A DNA stretch of 64,000 nucleotides from Aquipseudomonas alcaligenes MRY13-0052 (GTDB taxonomy: Bacteria; Pseudomonadota; Gammaproteobacteria; Pseudomonadales; Pseudomonadaceae): NCBI GenBank assembly GCA_000474255.1, contig BATO01000028.1, positions 1 through 64,000 on the forward strand, read 5' to 3'. A model generated the notes under the pieces. It worked only from the letters and a program-made list of their open reading frames with translations. It was not told the DNA's origin and searched no databases. Positions 28,102 through 38,517 of the stretch are shown in pieces. The position numbers were made by a program, and so were the translations under genes. Numbering within the stretch: the stretch's first letter is position 1; each line of letters begins with the position of its first letter.

Positions 28102-28249
28102 GGTGTTTTCCTCTTCGGGCGGTTCATGGCCACCATGAGAAACCATGGCACGCCGGGGAAAAAGCGAGGTGCCGAAGAAGGGCTTTTTCGGATGGCGTAA
28201 CAATCCGCTCCGATCCTTCGCCGCAGGCCGGGAATTGAGACCGGTGAAA

Positions 28250-28279
28250 TTGTTTCGGCCGGGGGCGTTGCCGTATGCT
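28250..28279 (+). promoter_or_regulatory. Candidate sigma70 promoter of the ketosynthase operon
   Basis: TTGTTT - 18 bases - TATGCT, about 110 bases upstream of the ketosynthase start and the most promoter-like pair seen in the divergent gap. The -35 match is weak. Confidence 0.3.
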
Positions 28280-28386
28280 CGGCCGATTCTCTCCAGGGCT
28301 CATCTGCCCTTGCCAGTGGCCCCTGTGTGGGCACTGCGGCGGCGCCATGCCGCCGGGACGGCTCAACTTATCCAAACGGAACTTGA

Positions 28387-29406
28387 ATGCAGACTTCACC
28401 CCCCGCGCACCTGCCCGCCAGGCCCGTATCCATCCTCGGTTCCGGGCACGCCTTGCCCGAACGCATCGTTACCAGCACCGAGCTGGATGTCCGCCTCAAC
28501 CTGCGCGCTGGCAGCGTGGCGCGTATCAGCGGGGTCATCCAGCGGCATGTCGCGAGCCCCCGGGAGACCGCTGCCAGCCTCGGTGCCCTGGCGGCCCGCC
28601 GCGCCCTCGCCGCCGCCGGCCTGGAGCCGCAGCAGGTGGACCTGGTCGCCTGCGCCAGCGGCACTATGGACCAGGGCATGCCCAGCAACGCCGCGCTGCT
28701 GCACCTCGAACTGGGGCTGGGGCAGTCGGGCATCCCGGCGCTGGATGTCAACGCCAGCTGCCTGGGCTTTCTCGCCGCCGTCGATACCCTGTCGTGGCCG
28801 CTGAGTGCCGGGCGTTATCGACGCATCCTGCTGGTGTGCTCGGACATCGCCTCCTGCGGGTTGGACTGGCAGCAGGTGGAGGTCTGCGGGATCTTCGGCG
28901 ACGGTGCCGCTGCGGTGGTGCTGGGCCTTGGCGATGGCGGGCCGAAGATCATCGCCTCCAGCCTGCGCACCTATTCCGAAGGCGCACACCTGTGCGAAAT
29001 ACCCGGTGGCGGCTCGCGCTATCACCCGCGGCGCATCGATGTGCCCTTCGAGCCGCTGACCAGCTTCGCCATGCACGGCAAGGGCGTGTTCCGCCTGGCG
29101 GCCAAGCACCTGCCCGCCATGAAGGACGAGCTGCTGAGCCAGGCCGGGCTGACCCAGGCGCAGATCGATTGGGTCATCCCCCACCAGGCCAGCCACCGCG
29201 CCATGCAGCACGCGACGCGGCGCCTGGGCTTCAAACGCGACAAGGTCATCGACATCTTCGCCATGCACGGCAACCAGGTCGCCGCCTCGCTGCCCACGGC
29301 GCTGGATATCGCCATCCGCGACGGCCGCATCCAGCGCGGGCAACGCTTGCTGCTGATCGGCACCGGCGCGGGCCTGTCCCTCGGCGGCATGATCCTGGAG
29401 TACTGA
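28387..29406 (+). CDS. Beta-ketoacyl-ACP synthase III family protein (first gene of the seven-gene operon)
   Basis: 339-residue thiolase-fold condensing enzyme. The catalytic triad is visible: Cys125 in NASCLGF, His266 in PHQAS and Asn296 in MHGNQVAAS. Oxyanion-region glycines follow at IGTGAGLSLGG. Such enzymes join an acyl-CoA or acyl-ACP with malonyl-ACP or a second acyl-CoA (FabH, OleA, CerJ types). It differs from housekeeping FabH in the TMDQGMPSNAALLHLELG region and sits at the head of a coupled pathway operon rather than among fatty-acid genes. The ATG at 28387 follows GGAAC. The stop overlaps the next start (TGATG). Confidence 0.85.
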   Translation: MQTSPPAHLPARPVSILGSGHALPERIVTSTELDVRLNLRAGSVARISGVIQRHVASPRETAASLGALAARRALAAAGLEPQQVDLVACASGTMDQGMPSNAALLHLELGLGQSGIPALDVNASCLGFLAAVDTLSWPLSAGRYRRILLVCSDIASCGLDWQQVEVCGIFGDGAAAVVLGLGDGGPKIIASSLRTYSEGAHLCEIPGGGSRYHPRRIDVPFEPLTSFAMHGKGVFRLAAKHLPAMKDELLSQAGLTQAQIDWVIPHQASHRAMQHATRRLGFKRDKVIDIFAMHGNQVAASLPTALDIAIRDGRIQRGQRLLLIGTGAGLSLGGMILEY

Positions 29407-30413
29407 TGAAGATTCTGGTTACCGGTGGCAGCGGCTTCGTCGGCCGCCATATCGCCTGGCGCCTGGTGGCCGAAGGCTGCGAGGTGGTCTTCACGGGGCG
29501 CAACGCCACGGCGGCGGCCGAGGTGATCCAGCACAGCCCCGGCCCCCTGCGCTGGGTGCCGGTGGAGCACGGCTCCCCGACGGCGGCCGCGACCTTGCGG
29601 GAGGCCAGCCAGGGCTGCGCGGCCATCGTCCATTGCGCGGCGCTGTCCTCGCCCTGGGGCTCGGTCCAGGCGTTCGCGGATGCCAACGTGGCGTCCACCG
29701 AGGAGGTGCTCCAGGCCTGCGAGGCCAATGGCGTGAAGCGCCTGGTGCATATCTCCACGCCGAGCCTGTACTTCGCCTTCCGCGATCGCCTCGGCGTGCG
29801 CGAGGACGAGCCCTTGCCGCCACCGGTCAACGAATATGCCCGCAGCAAGGGCCTGGCCGAGGAGCGGGTGCGCGCGGCCGGCCTGCCCGAGGCGGTGCTG
29901 CTGCGCCCGCGCGCGGTGTTCGGCCCCTGGGACGGCACCCTGATGCCGCGCCTGCTGCGGGTCATGCAGCGTGGGCCGATTCCGCTGATGCGCGGCGGGC
30001 GCGCGCAACTGGACCTGACCTGCGTCGACAACCTGGTCCAGGCGATCTGGCTGGGCCTCAACCAGCCGTTGCCCAGGGCCCTGTGCACCTACAACGTCAG
30101 CAACGGTACGCCGCTGGCCTTCGAAGACCTGCTGCACAAGGTCGCCGCCGCCTTCCAGCTGGAGCTGCGCACCCGCCGGTTGCCCTGGCGGTTGGTGGAC
30201 CTCATTGCCCGTGGCCTGGAAGCCAGTGCGCGCCTGCGCGACAGTGGCGAGCCGCTGATCACCCGCTATGGCGCCGGTGTGCTCGCCTTCAGCCAGACCC
30301 TGGACCTCCAGGCCCTCCACGACGAGCTGGGCTACCGCCCGGTGATCACCCAGGACGAAGGCATCCGCCAGCACGCGCAGTGGTGGCTGGCCCAACCAGG
30401 AGTACGCCCATGA
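29406..30413 (+). CDS. NAD(P)-dependent epimerase/3beta-HSD-type reductase
   Basis: 335-residue extended short-chain dehydrogenase. The Rossmann motif GGSGFVGRHIAWRL is at residues 7-20. The catalytic Tyr-Lys pair is in EYARSKG, with a Ser/Thr in HISTPSLYF before it, and the substrate domain lies C-terminal. By similarity to the 3beta-hydroxysteroid-dehydrogenase/OleD group it probably reduces the beta-keto product of the preceding synthase, or oxidises the reverse. The TGATG and ATGA overlaps on either side couple it to its neighbours. Confidence 0.83.
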   Translation: MKILVTGGSGFVGRHIAWRLVAEGCEVVFTGRNATAAAEVIQHSPGPLRWVPVEHGSPTAAATLREASQGCAAIVHCAALSSPWGSVQAFADANVASTEEVLQACEANGVKRLVHISTPSLYFAFRDRLGVREDEPLPPPVNEYARSKGLAEERVRAAGLPEAVLLRPRAVFGPWDGTLMPRLLRVMQRGPIPLMRGGRAQLDLTCVDNLVQAIWLGLNQPLPRALCTYNVSNGTPLAFEDLLHKVAAAFQLELRTRRLPWRLVDLIARGLEASARLRDSGEPLITRYGAGVLAFSQTLDLQALHDELGYRPVITQDEGIRQHAQWWLAQPGVRP

Positions 30414-31264
30414 GCCGCACCGTCAGTCTCAACATCCTGCGCGCCGGCTGGTGCCGGCACCTGGAGTGCATGGCGGACCGCGGCGGGCGCTGGGCGAAAA
30501 CCGAGTTCCCGGCGCTCTGCGGGTTGATCCGCCACCCCGAGGAGGGCTGGCTGCTGTACGACACCGGTTACTCCGAGCACTTCTTCCAGGCCACCCAGGC
30601 CCTGCCCGAGCGCCTGTTCCGCCAGGCGGTTCCCGTGGAGCTGCCGGTGCAGGAGCGGCTGCACGCGCAATTGCAGGCCTTGGGCATCACCCCGGACGAC
30701 ATCCGCACGGTGATCATTTCGCACTTCCACAGCGACCATATCGCCGGGCTGCGGGACTTCCACAAGGCCTCGTTCATCGCGCTCGACGCTGACCGCCGGC
30801 ATATCGAAAGCCTGCGTGGCCGGCGCTGGCGCGCGACCCTGGGCGGCCACCTGCCGACGCTGCTGCCCGATGATTTCGGTGCCCGCGTGCGCCTGGCCGA
30901 TGCGTGCCGCCGCTGTGATCTGCCGGTGTGGATGCAGCCCTTCGACCAGGGCTTCGACCTGCTGGGCGATGGCAGCCTGGTGGGCGTGCCGCTGCCGGGG
31001 CATAGCGAGGGCCAGCTCGGGTTGTTCATCCCCGATGCCCAGGGGCGCCCGGTGTTCCTGGTGGCGGATGCCTGCTGGTCGGTGCCCGCCTGCCGCGCGG
31101 GTCGGCTACCGGCGCCACCGGCCCTGTGGTTCGCCGGCCACGACGCCGGGCAGTACCGCCAGACCTATGCCGGCCTGGGGGCGTTGATCCGCAACGAGCC
31201 CGCCGTTGCCGTGCTGCCTTCCCACTGCACCCAGGCCTGGGAGGCGTTTGAGAATGAGCGCTGA
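30410..31264 (+). CDS. Metallo-beta-lactamase-fold hydrolase
   Basis: 284-residue MBL-fold protein. The dinuclear-metal motif HFHSDH (about 105-110) is followed by GHSEGQ near 197-202 and VADACW near 218-223, giving the HxHxDH, H, D set. The order resembles lactonases of the AHL-lactonase class as well as thioesterases and glyoxalase-II-like enzymes. Within the operon it could release or trim a thioester or lactone intermediate, or detoxify the product. Start overlaps the previous stop (ATGA) and it ends 11 bases into the next gene. Confidence 0.8.
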   Translation: MSRTVSLNILRAGWCRHLECMADRGGRWAKTEFPALCGLIRHPEEGWLLYDTGYSEHFFQATQALPERLFRQAVPVELPVQERLHAQLQALGITPDDIRTVIISHFHSDHIAGLRDFHKASFIALDADRRHIESLRGRRWRATLGGHLPTLLPDDFGARVRLADACRRCDLPVWMQPFDQGFDLLGDGSLVGVPLPGHSEGQLGLFIPDAQGRPVFLVADACWSVPACRAGRLPAPPALWFAGHDAGQYRQTYAGLGALIRNEPAVAVLPSHCTQAWEAFENER

Positions 31265-32612
31265 GCGGGCCCTCGGCGCCCTGCGCAGCATCGCGAGTTT
31301 CATCCACAGCCGTTACCGCCTGCGCTTCACCCGACGCGAGCAGCTGGAGGCCTGGCAGGCCAGGCAGCTGCGGCACTTCCTGCAGGATGTGCTGCCCCGT
31401 GCCGGGCGCTTCCAGGGGCGGGCCATCACCGACCTGGCCAGCCTGCCGCTGATGGACAAGGCCACGTTGATGGGGGATTTCGCCGGCTTCAACAGCCGTG
31501 GCTTGAGCCTGGAGGAGGTGTTGCCGATCGCCCGACAGGCGGAGGCGTCGCGGGATTTCAGCCCGACCCTGGGCGATATCACCGTCGGCCTGTCGAGCGG
31601 CACCTCGGGCAACCAGGGCGTGTTCCTGGTCAGCAGCGAGGAGCGCCAGCGTTGGGCCGGCATCCTGCTGGCGAAGACCCTGCCCCGGCACCTGTTGCCA
31701 CGCCTGCTGGCGCCCTGGCGCCCGGCCTTGCGCATCGCCTTCTACTTGCGGGCCAACAGCCGCCTGTACACCACGCTGTCCAGCCGGCGGATCGACTTCG
31801 GCTTCTATGACCTGACCCTGGGGCTGGAGCCGTCGCTGGCGCGCCTCGCGGCCCATGCCCCCGATGTGCTGGTGGCCCCGGCCACCGTGCTGCGCGGGCT
31901 GGCCGAGGCGGCGCTCGCCGGGCGCCTGAGCATCCGCCCGAGCCATATCCTCTCGGTCGCCGAGGTGCTCGAAGCGGAGGATGCAGAAGCCGTGCGCAAC
32001 GCATTCGGCGTGGCCCCGCAGCAGATCTACCAGGCCAGCGAAGGCTTCCTCGGCTACACCTGCGAGCGCGGCACCCTGCACCTGAACGAGTGCCACCTGC
32101 ATATCGAGCCGGAGTGGCTGGATGCCGGGCGCACGCGCTTTCAACCGATCATCACCGACTTCTCCCGGCGCACGCAGATGATCGTGCGCTACCGCCTCAA
32201 CGATGTGTTGCGGGTGGCCGAGGCGCCGTGCGCCTGCGGGCGTGTCGAGCGGGCCATCGCCGCCATCGAGGGGCGCGCCGACGACATCCTCTGGCTGCCC
32301 GACCTGCCGGGCCGGCAGTTGCTCGCGCTCTACCCCGATGTGCTGCGCCGCACCCTGCTGATGCACGGGGCGGCCTTGCAGGAGTACGAGATCCATCAGC
32401 GCGGGCTGGCGTGGCAGGTCAACCTGCGCGCCGCCGGCGACCACGACGACGCCTGCCTGGCGCTCGGCGACAGCCTCCGCGCGCTGTGCGCCCAGTTGGG
32501 CGTGCGCCCACCGGCGCTAAGGTTCGGGCACTGGCAACCTGCGCCACCCGAGGCCAAGCGCCGCCGATTGAAACTCCTGGAACTGCCCGAGGGCCTGCCA
32601 TGCACGTACTGA
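31254..32612 (+). CDS. F390-synthetase-related adenylate-forming enzyme (PaaK-like)
   Basis: 452-residue relative of coenzyme F390 synthetase and phenylacetate-CoA ligase. The adenylation motif SSGTSGNQG lies near residues 114-122. Later features are YQASEGFLGYTC, a short cysteine motif APCACGR, the segment RADDILWLPD and a basic C-terminus. These enzymes activate a carboxylate as an acyl-AMP; the second partner (CoA, amine, hydroxyl) varies. This clade is a known hypothetical adenylate-forming group. The start at 31254 overlaps the MBL gene by 11 bases; the upstream extension is antisense to nothing recognisable and was discarded. Confidence 0.8.
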   Translation: MSAERALGALRSIASFIHSRYRLRFTRREQLEAWQARQLRHFLQDVLPRAGRFQGRAITDLASLPLMDKATLMGDFAGFNSRGLSLEEVLPIARQAEASRDFSPTLGDITVGLSSGTSGNQGVFLVSSEERQRWAGILLAKTLPRHLLPRLLAPWRPALRIAFYLRANSRLYTTLSSRRIDFGFYDLTLGLEPSLARLAAHAPDVLVAPATVLRGLAEAALAGRLSIRPSHILSVAEVLEAEDAEAVRNAFGVAPQQIYQASEGFLGYTCERGTLHLNECHLHIEPEWLDAGRTRFQPIITDFSRRTQMIVRYRLNDVLRVAEAPCACGRVERAIAAIEGRADDILWLPDLPGRQLLALYPDVLRRTLLMHGAALQEYEIHQRGLAWQVNLRAAGDHDDACLALGDSLRALCAQLGVRPPALRFGHWQPAPPEAKRRRLKLLELPEGLPCTY

Positions 32613-33754
32613 TTCTCGGCGCCCGTGCGCCGGCCTGCCTGGAGTGGGCGCGTGCCTTCGACGAGGCTGGCTGGACGGTCAGCGTCGGCGATTCGCTGAG
32701 CCTGCCGCTCAGCCGCTTCAGCCGTTCGGCGCAGCATTTCGTGCGCCTGCCGGAGCCCCGGCAAAACCCGGCGGCCTGGGTCGAAGCGCTGGCGGCGGTG
32801 ATCCAGGCGCAGGGCATCGACCTGCTGCTGCCGACCTGCGAGGAGGTGTTCTACCTCTCCCACGGCCTGGCAAGGCTGGCACCGCTGTGCCGAGTGCTGA
32901 CCAGTGACTTCACCCTGCTGCACCGCCTGCACCACAAGGGGCGCTTCGCCGCCATGACCGAGGGCTGGGCGCTGAGTGCGCCCGAAACCCATCTGCTGGC
33001 CGACAGCCAGGCCCTGCAGCGCTTCGCCGACGAGGCCGCGCAGTGGGTGTTCAAGCCGGCCTACTCGCGTTTCGCCTCGCAGACCCTGATCCGCCCCAGC
33101 GCAGTACAACTAGGCAAGGTCCAGCCGACGGCTGCGGCGCCCTGGGTGGCGCAGCGCTTCATCGAGGGGCGCGAGCTCTGCAGCTTCAGCCTGCTGGTGG
33201 ACGGCGAGTTGCGCGCCCACAGCTGCTATCACCCGCGCTACCGGGTGGGCCGGGGCTCGGGTATCTACTTCCAGCCCGAGCTGCCGCAACCGATCCGCGA
33301 GTTTCTCGAGCGCTTCGGTCGGGAGACCGGCTACACCGGCCAGGTGGGCTTCGACTTCATCGAAGACCGCGCCGGGCGCTTCCATGTACTGGAATGCAAC
33401 CCCCGGGCAACCAGCGGCGTGCACCTGTTCGACGACCAGCGCCGGCAGCTGGTGGCCAGCCTGGGGGCTGCCTCCGGACAACTGCTGGAAGCCACGCCCG
33501 CACCGCGCATGGTCGCCCTGGCGGTGCTGTTGCTGGCGGCGCCGCAACGGGCCTTCAGCGCACCCTTCTGGCAGGACTACGCCGCCGCCCGCGATGTGGT
33601 GGTCCAGCAGGGGGACTACTGGCCCCTGACCACGCAATTGCTGGGGCTGTCGGAAATCATCGCCCGCGCCCTGACCCGGCGTTGCGGCCTGCTGGCCGCC
33701 TCCACGGCGGACATCGAATGGAACGGCCAGCCCCTGGGCGAGGCACTGCGATGA
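32600..33754 (+). CDS. ATP-grasp ligase
   Basis: 384-residue ATP-grasp protein. The N-terminal preATP-grasp domain starts HVLILGARAPACLEWARAF. The ATP-grasp core has WVFKPAYSRFAS, the hinge VAQRFIEGRELCSF and the metal/carboxylate site GFDFIEDRAGRFHVLECNPRATSG split by family-typical spacing. Such enzymes join a carboxylate to an amine or thiol through an acyl phosphate. In this operon it may form an amide or ester bond on the acyl chain. Overlaps the previous gene by 13 bases and the next by ATGA. Confidence 0.83.
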   Translation: MHVLILGARAPACLEWARAFDEAGWTVSVGDSLSLPLSRFSRSAQHFVRLPEPRQNPAAWVEALAAVIQAQGIDLLLPTCEEVFYLSHGLARLAPLCRVLTSDFTLLHRLHHKGRFAAMTEGWALSAPETHLLADSQALQRFADEAAQWVFKPAYSRFASQTLIRPSAVQLGKVQPTAAAPWVAQRFIEGRELCSFSLLVDGELRAHSCYHPRYRVGRGSGIYFQPELPQPIREFLERFGRETGYTGQVGFDFIEDRAGRFHVLECNPRATSGVHLFDDQRRQLVASLGAASGQLLEATPAPRMVALAVLLLAAPQRAFSAPFWQDYAAARDVVVQQGDYWPLTTQLLGLSEIIARALTRRCGLLAASTADIEWNGQPLGEALR

Positions 33755-34890
33755 GGCTGCTGCCTGCCGAACGGCTCCTGGCCGAGCCCTCAGGCGACGG
33801 TGACAGCCTGGCGCGCACCTATGTAAAGGCCTGCGCCAGTGCGCGCCTGGTCGGCAATGTGACCACGCGCCTGGCGTTGCTCGATACCGGCACCCAGCAG
33901 TTCCCCGTCAGCATCACCGACGGTGGCGAGCTGGAAGGCAATTGCTACGTGGTGTCACCGCGCACCGCCTACAGCGGCTACGCCCGTGAAGAGATCAAGC
34001 GCCTCGGCAAGCCCTGGCTGACCTGGCCGCTCACCCTGCTGACCCTGGGGGTCGACCGCCTGCTGCGCCTGGCCAAGGTGGACAGGCTGGCGCAGGTGAA
34101 CAACTGGCTGCTGTCCACCAACCTCTACCCGGCGGGCTGGGACCTCGATGAGTTGCCGGCGATCACGGCATTGTTGAAGGCGGAGTTTCCCGACAGCGGC
34201 TTCGGTTTCCGCTCGCTCAACGACGCCAGCAACCGCGCGCTGCGCGAGCGGCTGGAGGGCCTCGGCTACCTGAGCATTCCCAGCCGCCAGGTCTACCTGT
34301 TCGATGGCCGTGCCGGAGGCGAAGCCGCGTTCCTCAAGCATCACAACACCCGCCTGGACGCCACCTTGCTGCGCCGCAGCCCCTATGACGTGGTGGATGG
34401 CGCGGCGCTGAGCGAAGCCGATTTCCAGCGCATCGAGCACCTCTACAACCTGCTGTACCTGGATAAGTACTGCCGGCTCAACCCCCATTACAGCGCCGCC
34501 TGGCTGCAACGTGGCCAGGAGCAGGGCTGGCTCGACATACGCGCCCTGCGCGGCCCCGACGGGCGGATCGACGGGGCGTTGGGCTGGTTCGCCAACGCGA
34601 CGCTGATCAGCGCCCCGATCGTCGGCTACGACACCGCGCTGCCCCAGCGGGCCGGGCTCTATCGGCAACTGACGCGCCTGTGCCTGCAAGAGGCCGTGGA
34701 GCGCCGGGTGGTGCTGAACTTCAGTTCCGGTGCCGCCGGGTTCAAGCGCCTGCGCGGCGGACAGGCGGAGATCGAGTACAGCCTGATCCACGTTGCCCAC
34801 CTGCCCTGGCACCGGCGCCTGGTGTGGACCCTGCTCAGCCGCCTGCTGCATGGCATCGCCGTGCCGATGATGAAGAAGCTCAAGCTATGA
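33751..34890 (+). CDS. GNAT/FemAB-like acyltransferase
   Basis: 379-residue protein that I cannot place in a named subfamily. The C-terminal half (about 210-360) resembles the GNAT/FemAB acyltransferase fold: a [20 protein letters not shown] stretch, [11 protein letters not shown] and [24 protein letters not shown] basic, hydrophobic C-terminal helix ends PMMKKLKL and may touch the membrane. It may transfer an acyl or aminoacyl group in the pathway. Tight ATGA overlaps on both sides put it inside the operon. No catalytic residues can be assigned. Confidence 0.55.
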
Positions 34891-35888
34891 CTGCATCCGC
34901 CCGATGGTGGCCGGTGGCGCTCAGCCACGAACTCGGCAAGCAGCCCCTGGCCTGCCAGTTGCACGACCTGCCACTGGTGCTGTTCCGCGCGGAGGACGGC
35001 ACGCCCGCCGCCTTGCCGGACCGCTGCCCGCACCGCTTCGCGCCACTGAGCGCGGGCAAGGTCCGTGACGGCCAGATCGAATGCCCGTATCACGGCTGGC
35101 GCTTCGCCGCCGACGGGCGCTGCACCCGCGTGCCCGGCACCGAACTGGAGCGCTGCGACAAGCCGTTGCTCGACAGCCTGCCCAGTTGCGAGGCCCATGG
35201 GCTGGTGTGGGTCAGCCCCGCAGGTGACCGGCCGGCCATCCTGCCGGTGGCGCCGGCCGAGCAGCGGCAGGCGCTCGATACCTTCTGGATCACCGACGAG
35301 GTGGAGTGCTCGCTGCTGGAGGCGGCGGAGAACTTCCTCGACGGCTTCCACACCCACTTCGTCCATGCCGGCTGGATTCGCCACGACCGGCAGCGGCAGG
35401 CGATCAGCGCCCGGGTCCGCCCGCTGGCCGACGGCGTCGAGGCGCTCTACAGCGAGGAGGGCACACAATCCGGGTTGATCTCGCGGCTGTTTGAAGGCGA
35501 GCGCGGCATCAGCATGGGACGCTTCCGCCTGCCCGGGCTGGCGGAAATCGAATACCGCGACCGCAAGGGCGGCCTCAACCTCCTGGTCAGCGCCTGGCTC
35601 GTGCCTGTCGGCAACGGCCGGCTGCGCCTGTTCGCCCGCATCGCCACCGCGCGCGGCTGGCTGCCCGCCGCGCTCAAGCGCCTGGTGCTGCGCCGGCTGT
35701 TCGGGGTGATCCTGCGCCAGGACCGGCAAATACTCGAACAGGTCAGCGCCAACCAGCGGCGTTTCGAGCACCTGCCAGTGAAGCCGCTGGATGGCAGGCA
35801 GGACCTGCTTGGGCCGAGCATTCGGCTGCTGATCGAGGGCGATGAGCGGCTCGATTTCGAGGAAAGGCGGGTGGAGATACAGCTCTAG
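34887..35888 (+). CDS. Rieske non-heme iron oxygenase
   Basis: 333-residue oxygenase alpha-type subunit. The Rieske [2Fe-2S] ligands are C47-P-H49 and C66-x2-H69 in ECPYHGW. The mononuclear iron site is the [12 protein letters not shown] motif with N149, D152, H155 and H160. It is somewhat short for the family and no reductase or ferredoxin gene is adjacent, so electrons must come from elsewhere. Family members hydroxylate, demethylate or desaturate; here it is the last gene of the operon, so oxidative tailoring is inferred. Confidence 0.87.
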
Positions 35889-35965
35889 GCGATAGAGAAT
35901 TTCTCCATCAGGCGGGCTTTCCCTACTGCCGGCGGGACACCGCGTCGCGTCGGCCGGAGGCGCGT

Positions 35966-36337
35966 CTAGAGTTGAATGGCAGAGGAAAAGCCGGGCTGGA
36001 CGACATGGGAGCGGTCAGGGCGCTCCGGGTCGTAGGCGATCTCGAGTTTCGTACCCACGGGGTAGCGACGGGCTGCGTCTTCTGCGGAGCTTTCTCGCGA
36101 AAACGGAGTGTTCAGGTTGACGGCGGAATGGTGCGTTCCGTTCGCCTCATAGCTGTAGAGCAGCGTGGCCGTGTACTCGCGCCGATCTCTTCGGTCCTTC
36201 GAGCTGGTCACCTTCATGCCGGTGACTATCGCCTGCGTCCTAGGCCAGTCCTGCTCGATCTCCGTGTGCACCCTGGCGTAGTAGATGGAGGCAGCTGCAA
36301 CGAGCAGAAATCCAATGATCTTCCATGCGTCCGACAT
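35966..36337 (-). CDS. DUF3592 membrane-anchored protein
   Basis: 123-residue protein: N-terminal anchor (WKIIGFLLVAAASIYYA, about residues 5-21), then a soluble DUF3592-like domain with the motif EYTATLLYSYEANGTHH and KLEIAYDPERPDRS. Function unknown; such proteins are often in envelope or nucleotide-signalling neighbourhoods. GGAAGGAAG lies upstream of the ATG at 36337. It is convergent with the Rieske gene, 77 bases away. Confidence 0.72.
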   Translation of the reverse strand: MSDAWKIIGFLLVAAASIYYARVHTEIEQDWPRTQAIVTGMKVTSSKDRRDRREYTATLLYSYEANGTHHSAVNLNTPFSRESSAEDAARRYPVGTKLEIAYDPERPDRSHVVQPGFSSAIQL

Positions 36338-36373
36338 GATTCTTCCTTCCTTGGAATATTGAGCAGGCAATAA

Positions 36374-36398
36374 AAAAGCCGGCTTGTGGCCGGCTTTT
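36374..36398. terminator. Symmetrical hairpin upstream of the DUF3592 gene
   Basis: AAAAGCCGGC - 5-base loop - GCCGGCTTTT, perfect 10-bp arms with A/T tails on both sides, so it could terminate in either direction. It lies 37 bases before the DUF3592 start, and would end any transcript arriving from the zeta region. Confidence 0.6.
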
Positions 36399-36420
36399 AG
36401 GGGGGGGTCAGGGCCCATTT

Positions 36421-36445
36421 TTGGTAAGCCGCGACCGCCTTTGAA
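36421..36445 (-). repeat. Decayed copy of the ppa 3' end
   Basis: TTGGTAAGCCGCGACCGCCT here against TGGTAAGCCGCAACCGCT at the ppa C-terminus (about 37996-38015): a run of 11 identical bases, then similar with a substitution and a one-base insertion. It would restate the codons near the ppa stop. It may mark an insertion boundary of the toxin patch, or be chance. Confidence 0.4.
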
Positions 36446-36738
36446 TTCATATGCGCATCAAGAGGTTAGCCCTTGAGCGGGCGCGAACTTTAGCAAATCT
36501 GCGCCGACACTGCCAGTTCCCGGGTTGCTCTGATGCTGGGGATGTGTGGTGGTGTTGATCTTTAGGCACAGCGCGTTGGTTATGCCCTGCTGCTTGTACG
36601 GGGCCGCTGAACTATGGGGTGTTGCGAGGTTGTCAGACGCTATCCGTAGAAGGTGTTATCGAGCCAGTACCTTGCAATGGGTTTGGGTGCTGGTCCGTGG
36701 GTCTAAGTGAGACGAGCAGCGGTTGTTGTCAGCCCATA

Positions 36739-36766
36739 TAAAAAAGCCCCGCACAGGGCAGGGCTT
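36739..36766 (-). terminator. Intrinsic terminator after the zeta-toxin unit
   Basis: On the minus strand AAGCCC ... GGGGCTT is followed by TTTTT, about 17 bases past the stop of the small gene at 36783. Confidence 0.7.
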
Positions 36767-36782
36767 ATTGCATGCAGGGCTG

Positions 36783-36956
36783 TCAGGAAAGCTTGGCCTT
36801 GGCAGCTGCAATAACTTCATTCTGTTGTTTGGAGGCTTCCGAAAGCACCGTCGCATAGACGCGTTTCTTTTCGTCCGACTTGGCATTTCGGATGAAGTCC
36901 GAGAATGCGTTTGTCGATTTTTTAGCCTTGTCCGTTACCGCCTTCGTCTCGCCCAT
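36783..36956 (-). CDS. Small protein downstream of the zeta toxin, possible antitoxin
   Basis: 57 residues, lysine/alanine-rich, predicted helical (opening MGETKAVTDKAKKSTNAFSDF, ending AAAKAKLS). The start at 36956 is supported by GGAG six bases upstream; an alternative ATG at 36968 has a poorer site. Its 5' end overlaps the toxin 3' end by 35 bases in another frame. No match to a known antitoxin can be claimed. Classic epsilon/PezA antitoxins lie upstream of zeta, so this order would be unusual. Confidence 0.55.
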   Translation of the reverse strand: MGETKAVTDKAKKSTNAFSDFIRNAKSDEKKRVYATVLSEASKQQNEVIAAAKAKLS

Positions 36957-37698
36957 TACGTGCTCCATGGTTGATCCCAAGCAATTCTTCGAGCATCGCT
37001 TTCGTGTGCCGCTGCGGGACGTGGTAATCGATCTTCTCAACCCCCGCTTTGTACAACCGGTTTGAGTTATCGTTATTTTTCAGCAGCAGGTCGACGCGCA
37101 CTTCTTTGCCAAACTTTAGCTTAACGGCGTTTACCACGTCACGCGCTGCGAAAAACTGATTGATGAAATGCTCTGGCCGTATTCTTCGCCCCTCCGTTGC
37201 TTCCCTGGCCTGGACGAACTGCCAGGCAAGCATGGGTTCTTGGTAAACGTAGAGAATCTGAACAAAGCGTTTTCTCTTCAGCGCCCGGCTGATGTTCTTG
37301 ATCGCTAGCTCCTCGTTCGCCAGCGTTCCGTCGAGCAGCATCGACTGCTTCTGCTCCAGTGCGGCATCCAGAATTCTATCGACCAGGATCGAGACGGCCC
37401 CCTGAAACAACCAGGCATTGCCTCCGACATAGTCCTGGAACTCACTTCGAAGTTCATCGGGGTCGATGCGAAGGATGGGGGTGTCGGCGAATAGGTTGAC
37501 CAGTGCGATCGAGGCTTCCGTCTTCCCGGCGCCAGGTGAGCCCGCCATGAACACTGAAACGGGATCGTCCTCTGGAGGATAGATTTCAGGGTTGGTCAGG
37601 CGCCGGCTGATCTGTTTCTTGTTCGCCTTGGCGAAGGCGATGGCGTTATCCCGGATCGCTTTCTCTTCAATGCAGGAGTCCACATCAAGCCACCTCAT
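36922..37698 (-). CDS. Zeta-toxin family kinase
   Basis: 258-residue protein of the zeta/PezT family. Walker A is GSPGAGKT at residues 53-60, the catalytic RIDPDELR follows at 78-85, and MLLDGTLAN is the next conserved strand. Zeta toxins phosphorylate UDP-N-acetylglucosamine-type sugars and block cell-wall synthesis; other family members have other targets. The ATG at 37698 has no good ribosome site; a GTG at 37683 has GAGGTGG six bases upstream and may be the true start. The codon use and GC are lower than neighbours, suggesting transfer. Confidence 0.8.
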   Translation of the reverse strand: MRWLDVDSCIEEKAIRDNAIAFAKANKKQISRRLTNPEIYPPEDDPVSVFMAGSPGAGKTEASIALVNLFADTPILRIDPDELRSEFQDYVGGNAWLFQGAVSILVDRILDAALEQKQSMLLDGTLANEELAIKNISRALKRKRFVQILYVYQEPMLAWQFVQAREATEGRRIRPEHFINQFFAARDVVNAVKLKFGKEVRVDLLLKNNDNSNRLYKAGVEKIDYHVPQRHTKAMLEELLGINHGARNGRDEGGNGQG

Positions 37699-37869
37699 GC
37701 AGCCGCACGAATGTCCGTGACACTCGTGAGTCTACTAGGCGTCGCCGCAGGCGATGGATGCGTGCTCCAGGCCGTTTTCCGATGGCCGTGCCAGTCAACA
37801 CCCGGGAGGACGGTACGTGACAGCCAGCTTGAAAGGCGGCTCATGGGACAGATGAACGACCAGAAATGA

Positions 37870-37896
37870 AAAAGCCCGGAGTTTATCCGGGCTTTT
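37870..37896. terminator. Terminator downstream of ppa
   Basis: AAAAGCCCGGA - GTTTA - TCCGGGCTTTT: 11-bp arms, with T-runs on both strands, 94 bases past the ppa stop. Confidence 0.8.
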
Positions 37897-37989
37897 CGTA
37901 TTGCCTACTGCACCACGGATGGTCTCCGTGGAAGGGATTGGCGAGAAGTTAAGCCCGAAACCGGCTCTAGCTCCGCGATCCCGGACGAG

Positions 37990-38517
37990 TCACTTCTGGT
38001 AAGCCGCAACCGCTTTGACGATTTCGGCGCGGGCAGCGTCAGCATTGCCCCAGCCTTCGACCTTGACCCATTTGCCTTTCTCGAGATCCTTGTAGTTCTC
38101 GAAGAAGTGCTTGATCTGTTCCAGCAGCAGGGCCGGCAGGTCGGTGTATTCCTTGATGTCCACGTACAGCTGGGACAGCTTGTCGTGGGGGACGGCGATC
38201 AGCTTGGCGTCGCCGCCGGCTTCGTCGGTCATGTGCAGGACGCCGACCGGACGGGCACGGATCACGGCGCCGGGGGCGACGGGATACGGGGTCACGACCA
38301 GCACGTCCAGCGGGTCGCCGTCGTCAGCCAGGGTGTTGGGGATGTAGCCGTAGTTGGCCGGGTAGAACATCGGGGTGGCCATGAAACGGTCGACGAACAG
38401 GCAATCGCTGTCCTTGTCGATTTCGTATTTGATCGGCGCGTGGTTGGCCGGGATTTCGATAGCGACGTAGATGTCGTTCGGCAGGTCTTTGCCAGCCGGG
38501 ATCTTGCTGTAGCTCAT
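37990..38517 (-). CDS. ppa: Inorganic pyrophosphatase
   Basis: 175-residue soluble family I pyrophosphatase. It splits pyrophosphate from biosynthetic reactions. The active-site signature DGDPLDVLV is present, with [20 protein letters not shown] before it and DIKEYTDLP later. Length matches E. coli and Pseudomonas Ppa. Single gene with its own terminator about 90 bases downstream. Confidence 0.96.

Follow-up and report, generated by a model that had tools for sequence, protein, structure and literature searches.

A horizontally acquired seven-gene operon with an undescribed four-gene core, probably for a fatty-acid-derived product, in Aquipseudomonas alcaligenes

What is made by a compact operon that combines a ketosynthase, a reductase and an adenylating enzyme, and do its genes belong together at all? 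This question is raised by a locus of Aquipseudomonas alcaligenes MRY13-0052 (assembly GCA_000474255.1), situated in the first 64,000 nucleotides of contig BATO01000028.1. This stretch, hereafter the window, corresponds to contig C210 of the 6.88 Mb genome. Seven intact open reading frames (ORFs) follow each other end to end on the plus strand from position 28387 to 35888 and encode, in this order, a ketosynthase III (KSIII), an extended short-chain dehydrogenase/reductase (SDR), a metallo-beta-lactamase (MBL)-fold hydrolase, an adenylate-forming enzyme of family TIGR02304, an ATP-grasp ligase, a GNAT-type protein and a Rieske oxygenase (genes 1 to 7, Table 1). We propose that they constitute an operon that was gained by horizontal transfer and makes a small molecule or polar lipid derived from fatty acids, and that they represent a widespread, undescribed family, a reading whose chances we regard as about even; comparisons of the encoded proteins and their neighbourhoods suggest that the product is probably a fatty-acid-derived molecule.

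The seven genes recur in the same order in Pseudomonas capsici, P. caspiana and P. viridiflava. The same holds for three genomes of a further Pseudomonadaceae genus, for a gammaproteobacterial metagenome-assembled genome (L040) and for a Paraburkholderia plasmid, whose record shows the Rieske gene in two pieces. In Pseudomonas sp. JUb42 the first six genes are followed by the contig end, and relatives in Rhizobiaceae possess the same genes with that for the ATP-grasp protein on the opposite strand. An earlier reading of the window (the sequence-only reading) had left it to be checked whether the genes stay together elsewhere in Pseudomonas and beyond, and they do, the order recurring from Pseudomonas to Paraburkholderia. 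Genes for the ketosynthase, SDR and MBL protein adjoined every strong relative of gene 4 in the samples of genus, family, class and phylum (17 of 17 genomes), and none of the weaker relatives looked at (E above 1e-30) had them alongside. The set of these four genes was found in Pseudomonadota (alpha, beta and gamma), Bacillota (L046, L047), Fusobacteriota (L050) and Acidobacteriota (L041), with a rearranged order in the last four loci. Moreover, the pairwise distances of the four proteins are correlated over 30 loci (r 0.86-0.91), as are those of the accessory proteins with those of the core (r 0.85-0.97; 0 of 2000 shuffles as high), in a Mantel-type test whose signal still includes the common ancestry of the hosts. 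The Rieske gene of the Paraburkholderia copy (L042, 12606-13626) consists of two overlapping frames, owing to a frameshift or a sequencing error.

The distribution is patchy, strong matches to gene 4 being present in 7 of 298 Pseudomonadaceae, and the ketosynthase tree mixes bacterial classes; together, these observations suggest that the core genes mostly move jointly between lineages. Judged from the compared loci, what is inherited as a unit is a core of four genes (ketosynthase, SDR, MBL and TIGR02304 proteins) with exchangeable accessory genes. The seven-gene set that the sequence-only reading had taken for a pathway unit is hence genuine and recurrent, but its basic unit comprises four genes and the remainder is exchangeable. 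Three Pseudomonas megaplasmids (pMPPla107, pBASL58 and FeN3W; L048, L049, L069) carry full, interrupted or partial sets, as diverged copies partly split by unrelated genes. No near-identical copy of the operon was present in the plasmid collection, and no relative of gene 4 in phages.

The exchangeable genes provide the link to lipids. Accessory set A is that of the window (ATP-grasp, GNAT, Rieske), set B comprises a PAP2 phosphatase, a fatty-acid hydroxylase and a fatty-acid desaturase, and set C, found in two alphaproteobacteria, a sulfotransferase and a TetR regulator; at some core loci, MerR and glutaredoxin genes are neighbours. In L040, core, set A and set B form a row of ten consecutive genes (ketosynthase, SDR, MBL, adenylating enzyme, ATP-grasp, GNAT, Rieske, PAP2, fatty-acid hydroxylase, fatty-acid desaturase), which links the sets to one pathway family and suggests a fatty-acid-derived product. 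Likewise, the desaturase, hydroxylase, PAP2 and sulfotransferase neighbours point to a lipid product. Set B is that of Escherichia coli, where the operon between narI and tyrT (NRG857_RS06425-06455) has the four core genes in the order of the window, followed by PAP2, hydroxylase and desaturase genes in place of ATP-grasp, GNAT and Rieske genes. An operon of this type was found in 672 of 5,426 complete E. coli genomes (~12%, about one in eight), nearly always on the chromosome. In E. coli NRG 857C this seven-gene lipid-type operon occupies positions 3001-9882 of L063, and several carrier strains are urinary-tract isolates by name.

The operon of the window lies between ispA and ppa, in agreement with an insertion between ispA/xseB-side and ppa-side genes as stated in the sequence-only reading, and the nearest congener (L151) is devoid of the interval: it joins window positions 28205 and 37992 with ~115 bp between them, i.e. 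it has an empty site. Gene 4 was found in 2 of 18 genomes of the genus, both of the same species. By this comparison of genomes, the operon is horizontally acquired. The second genome of the species largely lacks the part with the DUF3592 and zeta-toxin genes (~35.9-38.0 kb), so the interval was assembled in more than one step. The GC content of the operon (~0.70) is similar to that of its flanks, with values of 0.88-0.91 at third codon positions, and scans with consensus promoters and terminators gave no match. The ratio of non-synonymous to synonymous changes (pN/pS) in comparison with P. capsici is 0.20-0.30 in each of the seven genes, which indicates that all seven are maintained by purifying selection. 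Between the operon and ppa lies a low-GC segment on the minus strand (35966-37698) that contains genes for a DUF3592 and a zeta-toxin-like protein as well as a small ORF.

All six junctions are overlaps: TGATG between genes 1 and 2 (29404-29408), ATGA between genes 2 and 3 (30410-30413), 11 bp between genes 3 and 4 (31254-31264), 13 bp between genes 4 and 5 (32600-32612), and ATGA again between genes 5 and 6 (33751-33754) and genes 6 and 7 (34887-34890). The sequence-only reading had described this architecture of intact, overlapping plus-strand genes correctly, as it had the family order, which follows from NCBIfam or Pfam matches for all but gene 6, whose assignment comes from structure comparison, and the lack of an acyl carrier protein, polyketide synthase (PKS) or nonribosomal peptide synthetase (NRPS) gene inside the operon. 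The ketosynthase triad that it regarded as intact, Cys125-His266-Asn296, is present and conserved in relatives.

Table 1. Coordinates of the operon genes and of the interval missing from the nearest congener (positions in the window)
Feature	Position	Strand	Characteristics
Gene 1, ketosynthase III (core)	28387..29406	+	339 aa; Cys125-His266-Asn296; PRK07204 below cut-off
Gene 2, extended SDR / 3beta-HSD-type reductase (core)	29406..30413	+	335 aa; Tyr144-Lys148; best NCBIfam OleD
Gene 3, metallo-beta-lactamase-fold hydrolase (core)	30410..31264	+	284 aa; HxHxDH, His198, Asp220, His272; Lactamase_B
Gene 4, TIGR02304 'F390 synthetase-related' adenylate-forming enzyme (core)	31254..32612	+	452 aa; SSGTSGNQG loop, Lys435
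Gene 5, ATP-grasp ligase, PRK06849 type (accessory)	32600..33754	+	384 aa; ECNPR motif 265-269
Gene 6, GNAT-type protein, putatively of tandem-GNAT / FemABX-like kind (accessory)	33751..34890	+	379 aa; low-confidence model
Gene 7, Rieske non-haem iron oxygenase (accessory)	34887..35888	+	333 aa; Rieske + VanA_C
Interval missing from nearest congener: operon, DUF3592 gene and zeta-toxin gene	28206..37991		L151 comparison

Among the core proteins, the ketosynthase is the most informative. In a tree with few characterised references, in which a clade of 30 rows was set against 26 other KSIII sequences, the core ketosynthases and MxnB/CorB form this one clade (support 95/97), to which FabH, OleA and other KSIIIs do not belong. 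The nearest solved relatives of gene 1 are MxnB (4v2p), Neisseria FabH (4ryb) and CorB, and its score to PRK07204 (388 bits) is below the cut-off of 402, which the core ketosynthases of Paenibacillus (425) and Pontibacillus (445) pass. The alignment column of OleA Glu117 holds Met98 in gene 1, a Met, Leu, Ile or Val-like residue in the core ketosynthases and Glu in the OleA of L130 and L131. MxnB and CorB, the enzymes of myxopyronin and corallopyronin synthesis, are also without the OleA/PpyS glutamate (PMC4578411), as is gene 1, with which they have a GGGSR motif and a QxxP stretch in common. Enzymes of this type join two acyl chains (PMC5724707); their substrates are beta-keto chains bound to a PKS and their products alpha-pyrones (PMC4578411, PMC5724707), whereas the present operon has no PKS or NRPS gene and a reductase follows the ketosynthase.

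The SDR encoded by gene 2 matches Epimerase and 3Beta_HSD in Pfam and, best in NCBIfam, OleD (2-alkyl-3-oxoalkanoate reductase); its Tyr144 and Lys148 are conserved in relatives. A second OleD-like SDR of the same genome (L129, 7850-8839, on contig C233; 238 bits to OleD) stands beside two proteins without Pfam match. Gene 3 possesses the full set of MBL metal ligands and matches Lactamase_B in Pfam, its nearest NCBIfam families being N-acyl-homoserine lactone and pyridoxolactone lactonases, every one far below cut-off. Gene 4 passes TIGR02304 with 393.4 bits (cut-off 251.9) but is without any Pfam match; its nearest solved relative is PaaK, Lys435 is conserved in relatives, and its structure model (predicted local distance difference test, pLDDT, 60) was too poor and was not used.

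Of the accessory proteins, gene 5 passes PRK06849 (415.8 bits, cut-off 406), and most of its relatives in the plasmid collection belong to loci of the operon's kind. On Deinococcus plasmids the ATP-grasp relative adjoins a GNAT gene alone; such a pair without the four-gene core on a plasmid of Deinococcus QL22 (L148, 7844-10101) suggests that ATP-grasp and GNAT proteins act together as a module. Gene 6 has no family match in Pfam or NCBIfam. By structure comparison of its low-confidence model, the C-terminal half is a GNAT domain, and the whole resembles, with Z 11-13, tandem-GNAT aminoacyl transferases: FemX, aminoacyl-phosphatidylglycerol synthases and Sba18, a peptide synthase dependent on aminoacyl-tRNA and the best match (Z 12.8, root-mean-square deviation 5.5, 209 aligned residues). 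On this model, gene 6 would encode a tandem-GNAT or FemABX-like protein; the likeness is a lead only, because sequence profiles give no match to solved chains. Gene 7 matches Rieske and VanA_C, with DdmC as nearest solved relative, and its ligands C47, H49, C66, H69, D152, H155, H160 and D279 are conserved in relatives, corresponding to CxH..CxxH and a 2-His-1-carboxylate site (N149-D152-H155-H160, D279).

The comparisons establish the gene content, the joint inheritance, the intact catalytic residues and the horizontal gain. The assignments can be arranged into a putative pathway, in which the chemistry, with the order of the steps, the substrates and the product, is what we infer. The kinship of the ketosynthase suggests chain joining: the enzyme would condense two acyl thioesters from host fatty-acid synthesis to a beta-keto acyl chain, which the OleD-like SDR would reduce to a beta-hydroxy compound. 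With a ketosynthase of a chain-joining clade and an OleD-like reductase adjoining it, condensation of two chains followed by beta-reduction is the simplest reading. The conserved Lys435 and the P-loop-like SSGTSG lead us to expect that gene 4 adenylates a carboxylate to an acyl-adenylate, which may happen at the outset, on a starter, or after reduction, while the MBL protein might cleave a thioester or lactone. The fold families of genes 5 and 6 suggest that a head group, i.e. an amine, amino acid or aminoacyl group, could be added by these two proteins, and gene 7 might hydroxylate the product with a host ferredoxin. A more specific version, which we put forward only tentatively and regard as somewhat doubtful, is that the core is an unrecognised mobile chain-joining pathway, analogous to Ole but with unrelated activating and hydrolysing enzymes, that yields a new class of two-chain hydroxy lipids, amino-acylated and hydroxylated in Pseudomonas, desaturated and hydroxylated in E. 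coli.

Several observations weigh against a lipid made by chain joining. Gene 1 scores 215 bits to Neisseria FabH, the same as to MxnB, so an ordinary extension with malonyl-ACP is possible; gene 2 lies far under the OleD equivalog cut-off (184 against 580 bits); for gene 6, the alignment profile found no solved relative and the model is of low confidence (pLDDT 61). Finally, several loci hold the core with neither accessory set, so that what the core makes on its own may be something other than a membrane lipid.

Other explanations have to be seen against known systems. The Ole pathway (OleABCD or OleACD), which leads to head-to-head hydrocarbons and beta-lactones (PMC7064751), likewise has a single operon for a thiolase-fold condensing enzyme, a 3beta-HSD-type reductase, an adenylating enzyme and a hydrolase, and the four core proteins correspond in kind to the functional slots of OleA-D. 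One could therefore suppose that the ketosynthase forms a 2-alkyl-3-keto acid, that the SDR reduces it, that gene 4 closes a beta-lactone via acyl-AMP in the role of OleC and that the MBL protein opens or processes the lactone in the slot of OleB. The best match of the SDR, the lactonases nearest to the MBL protein and the position of the ketosynthase among chain-joining enzymes are consistent with this logic, but the catalytic Glu of OleA is replaced and the tree places the enzyme far from OleA. Furthermore, gene 4 is PaaK/TIGR02304-like instead of PF00501, gene 3 has an MBL fold instead of an alpha/beta hydrolase fold, the gene order differs and the ATP-grasp, GNAT and Rieske genes are additional, whereas the true ole locus L130 carries both an alpha/beta hydrolase (OleB) and a PF00501 enzyme (OleC); we consider an Ole-like route unlikely. 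As an ole operon proper the locus is ruled out, for it has neither Glu117 nor OleB or OleC homologues and its SDR stays below the OleD cut-off. A different precedent is the pqsA-E operon, where an adenylating ligase, a FabH-type KSIII and an MBL-fold thioesterase occur together. By analogy with PqsA, PqsD and PqsE, gene 4 might activate a starter acid, the ketosynthase extend it once with malonyl-ACP, the SDR reduce it, the MBL thioesterase free a beta-hydroxy acid and the ATP-grasp and GNAT proteins conjugate it. The intact FabH-type triad agrees with this, and loci with the four core genes only would have a closed minimal pathway. Yet the ketosynthase clusters with MxnB/CorB and not with the FabH sequences of the tree, it scores at most 115 bits to PqsD entries but 215 to MxnB, and long chains, not an aromatic starter, are suggested by the neighbouring fatty-acid desaturase and hydroxylase genes. 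The pqs operon has no SDR, ATP-grasp, GNAT or Rieske gene, and the ligase of the window is of the TIGR02304 type; this route also has a rather small chance of being right.

Other conjugates, such as a siderophore, signal or antibiotic on a non-lipid scaffold primed by the ketosynthase with an unusual starter, would accommodate the sulfotransferase and TetR or MerR and glutaredoxin neighbours and the megaplasmid copies scattered amid unrelated genes, but no transporter, receptor, carrier protein or self-resistance gene recurs with the core in the compared loci, and we deem them quite improbable. A chance meeting of unrelated genes, by which the sequence-only reading would have fallen, has nothing but the patchy distribution in its favour; it is excluded, as nearly as can be, by the constant order in several Pseudomonas, the gammaproteobacterial genome and Paraburkholderia, by the Rhizobiaceae loci with the ATP-grasp gene inverted and by the matched divergence of the proteins. 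Two further candidates can be set aside: the Pbo cluster of P. syringae, close in text only, is NRPS/PKS-based and different, and PADLOC defence models gave no match worth following (MBL protein against LmuA weak, E 2e-4).

The open-access literature (subscription journals and NCBI family notes lying outside this scope) gave no description of TIGR02304 or of the gene set, its papers on F390 synthetase dealing with methanogens, ladderanes, transposon lists or strain inventories, and the statement in the sequence-only reading that no pathway with this set is described holds within that literature. A conserved core to which no product is assigned, spread over four or more phyla and carried chromosomally by ~12% of the complete E. 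coli genomes, marks a directly testable gap in bacterial lipid chemistry; a product identified in one tractable host would explain what TIGR02304, PRK06849 and the orphan families linked to them do together.

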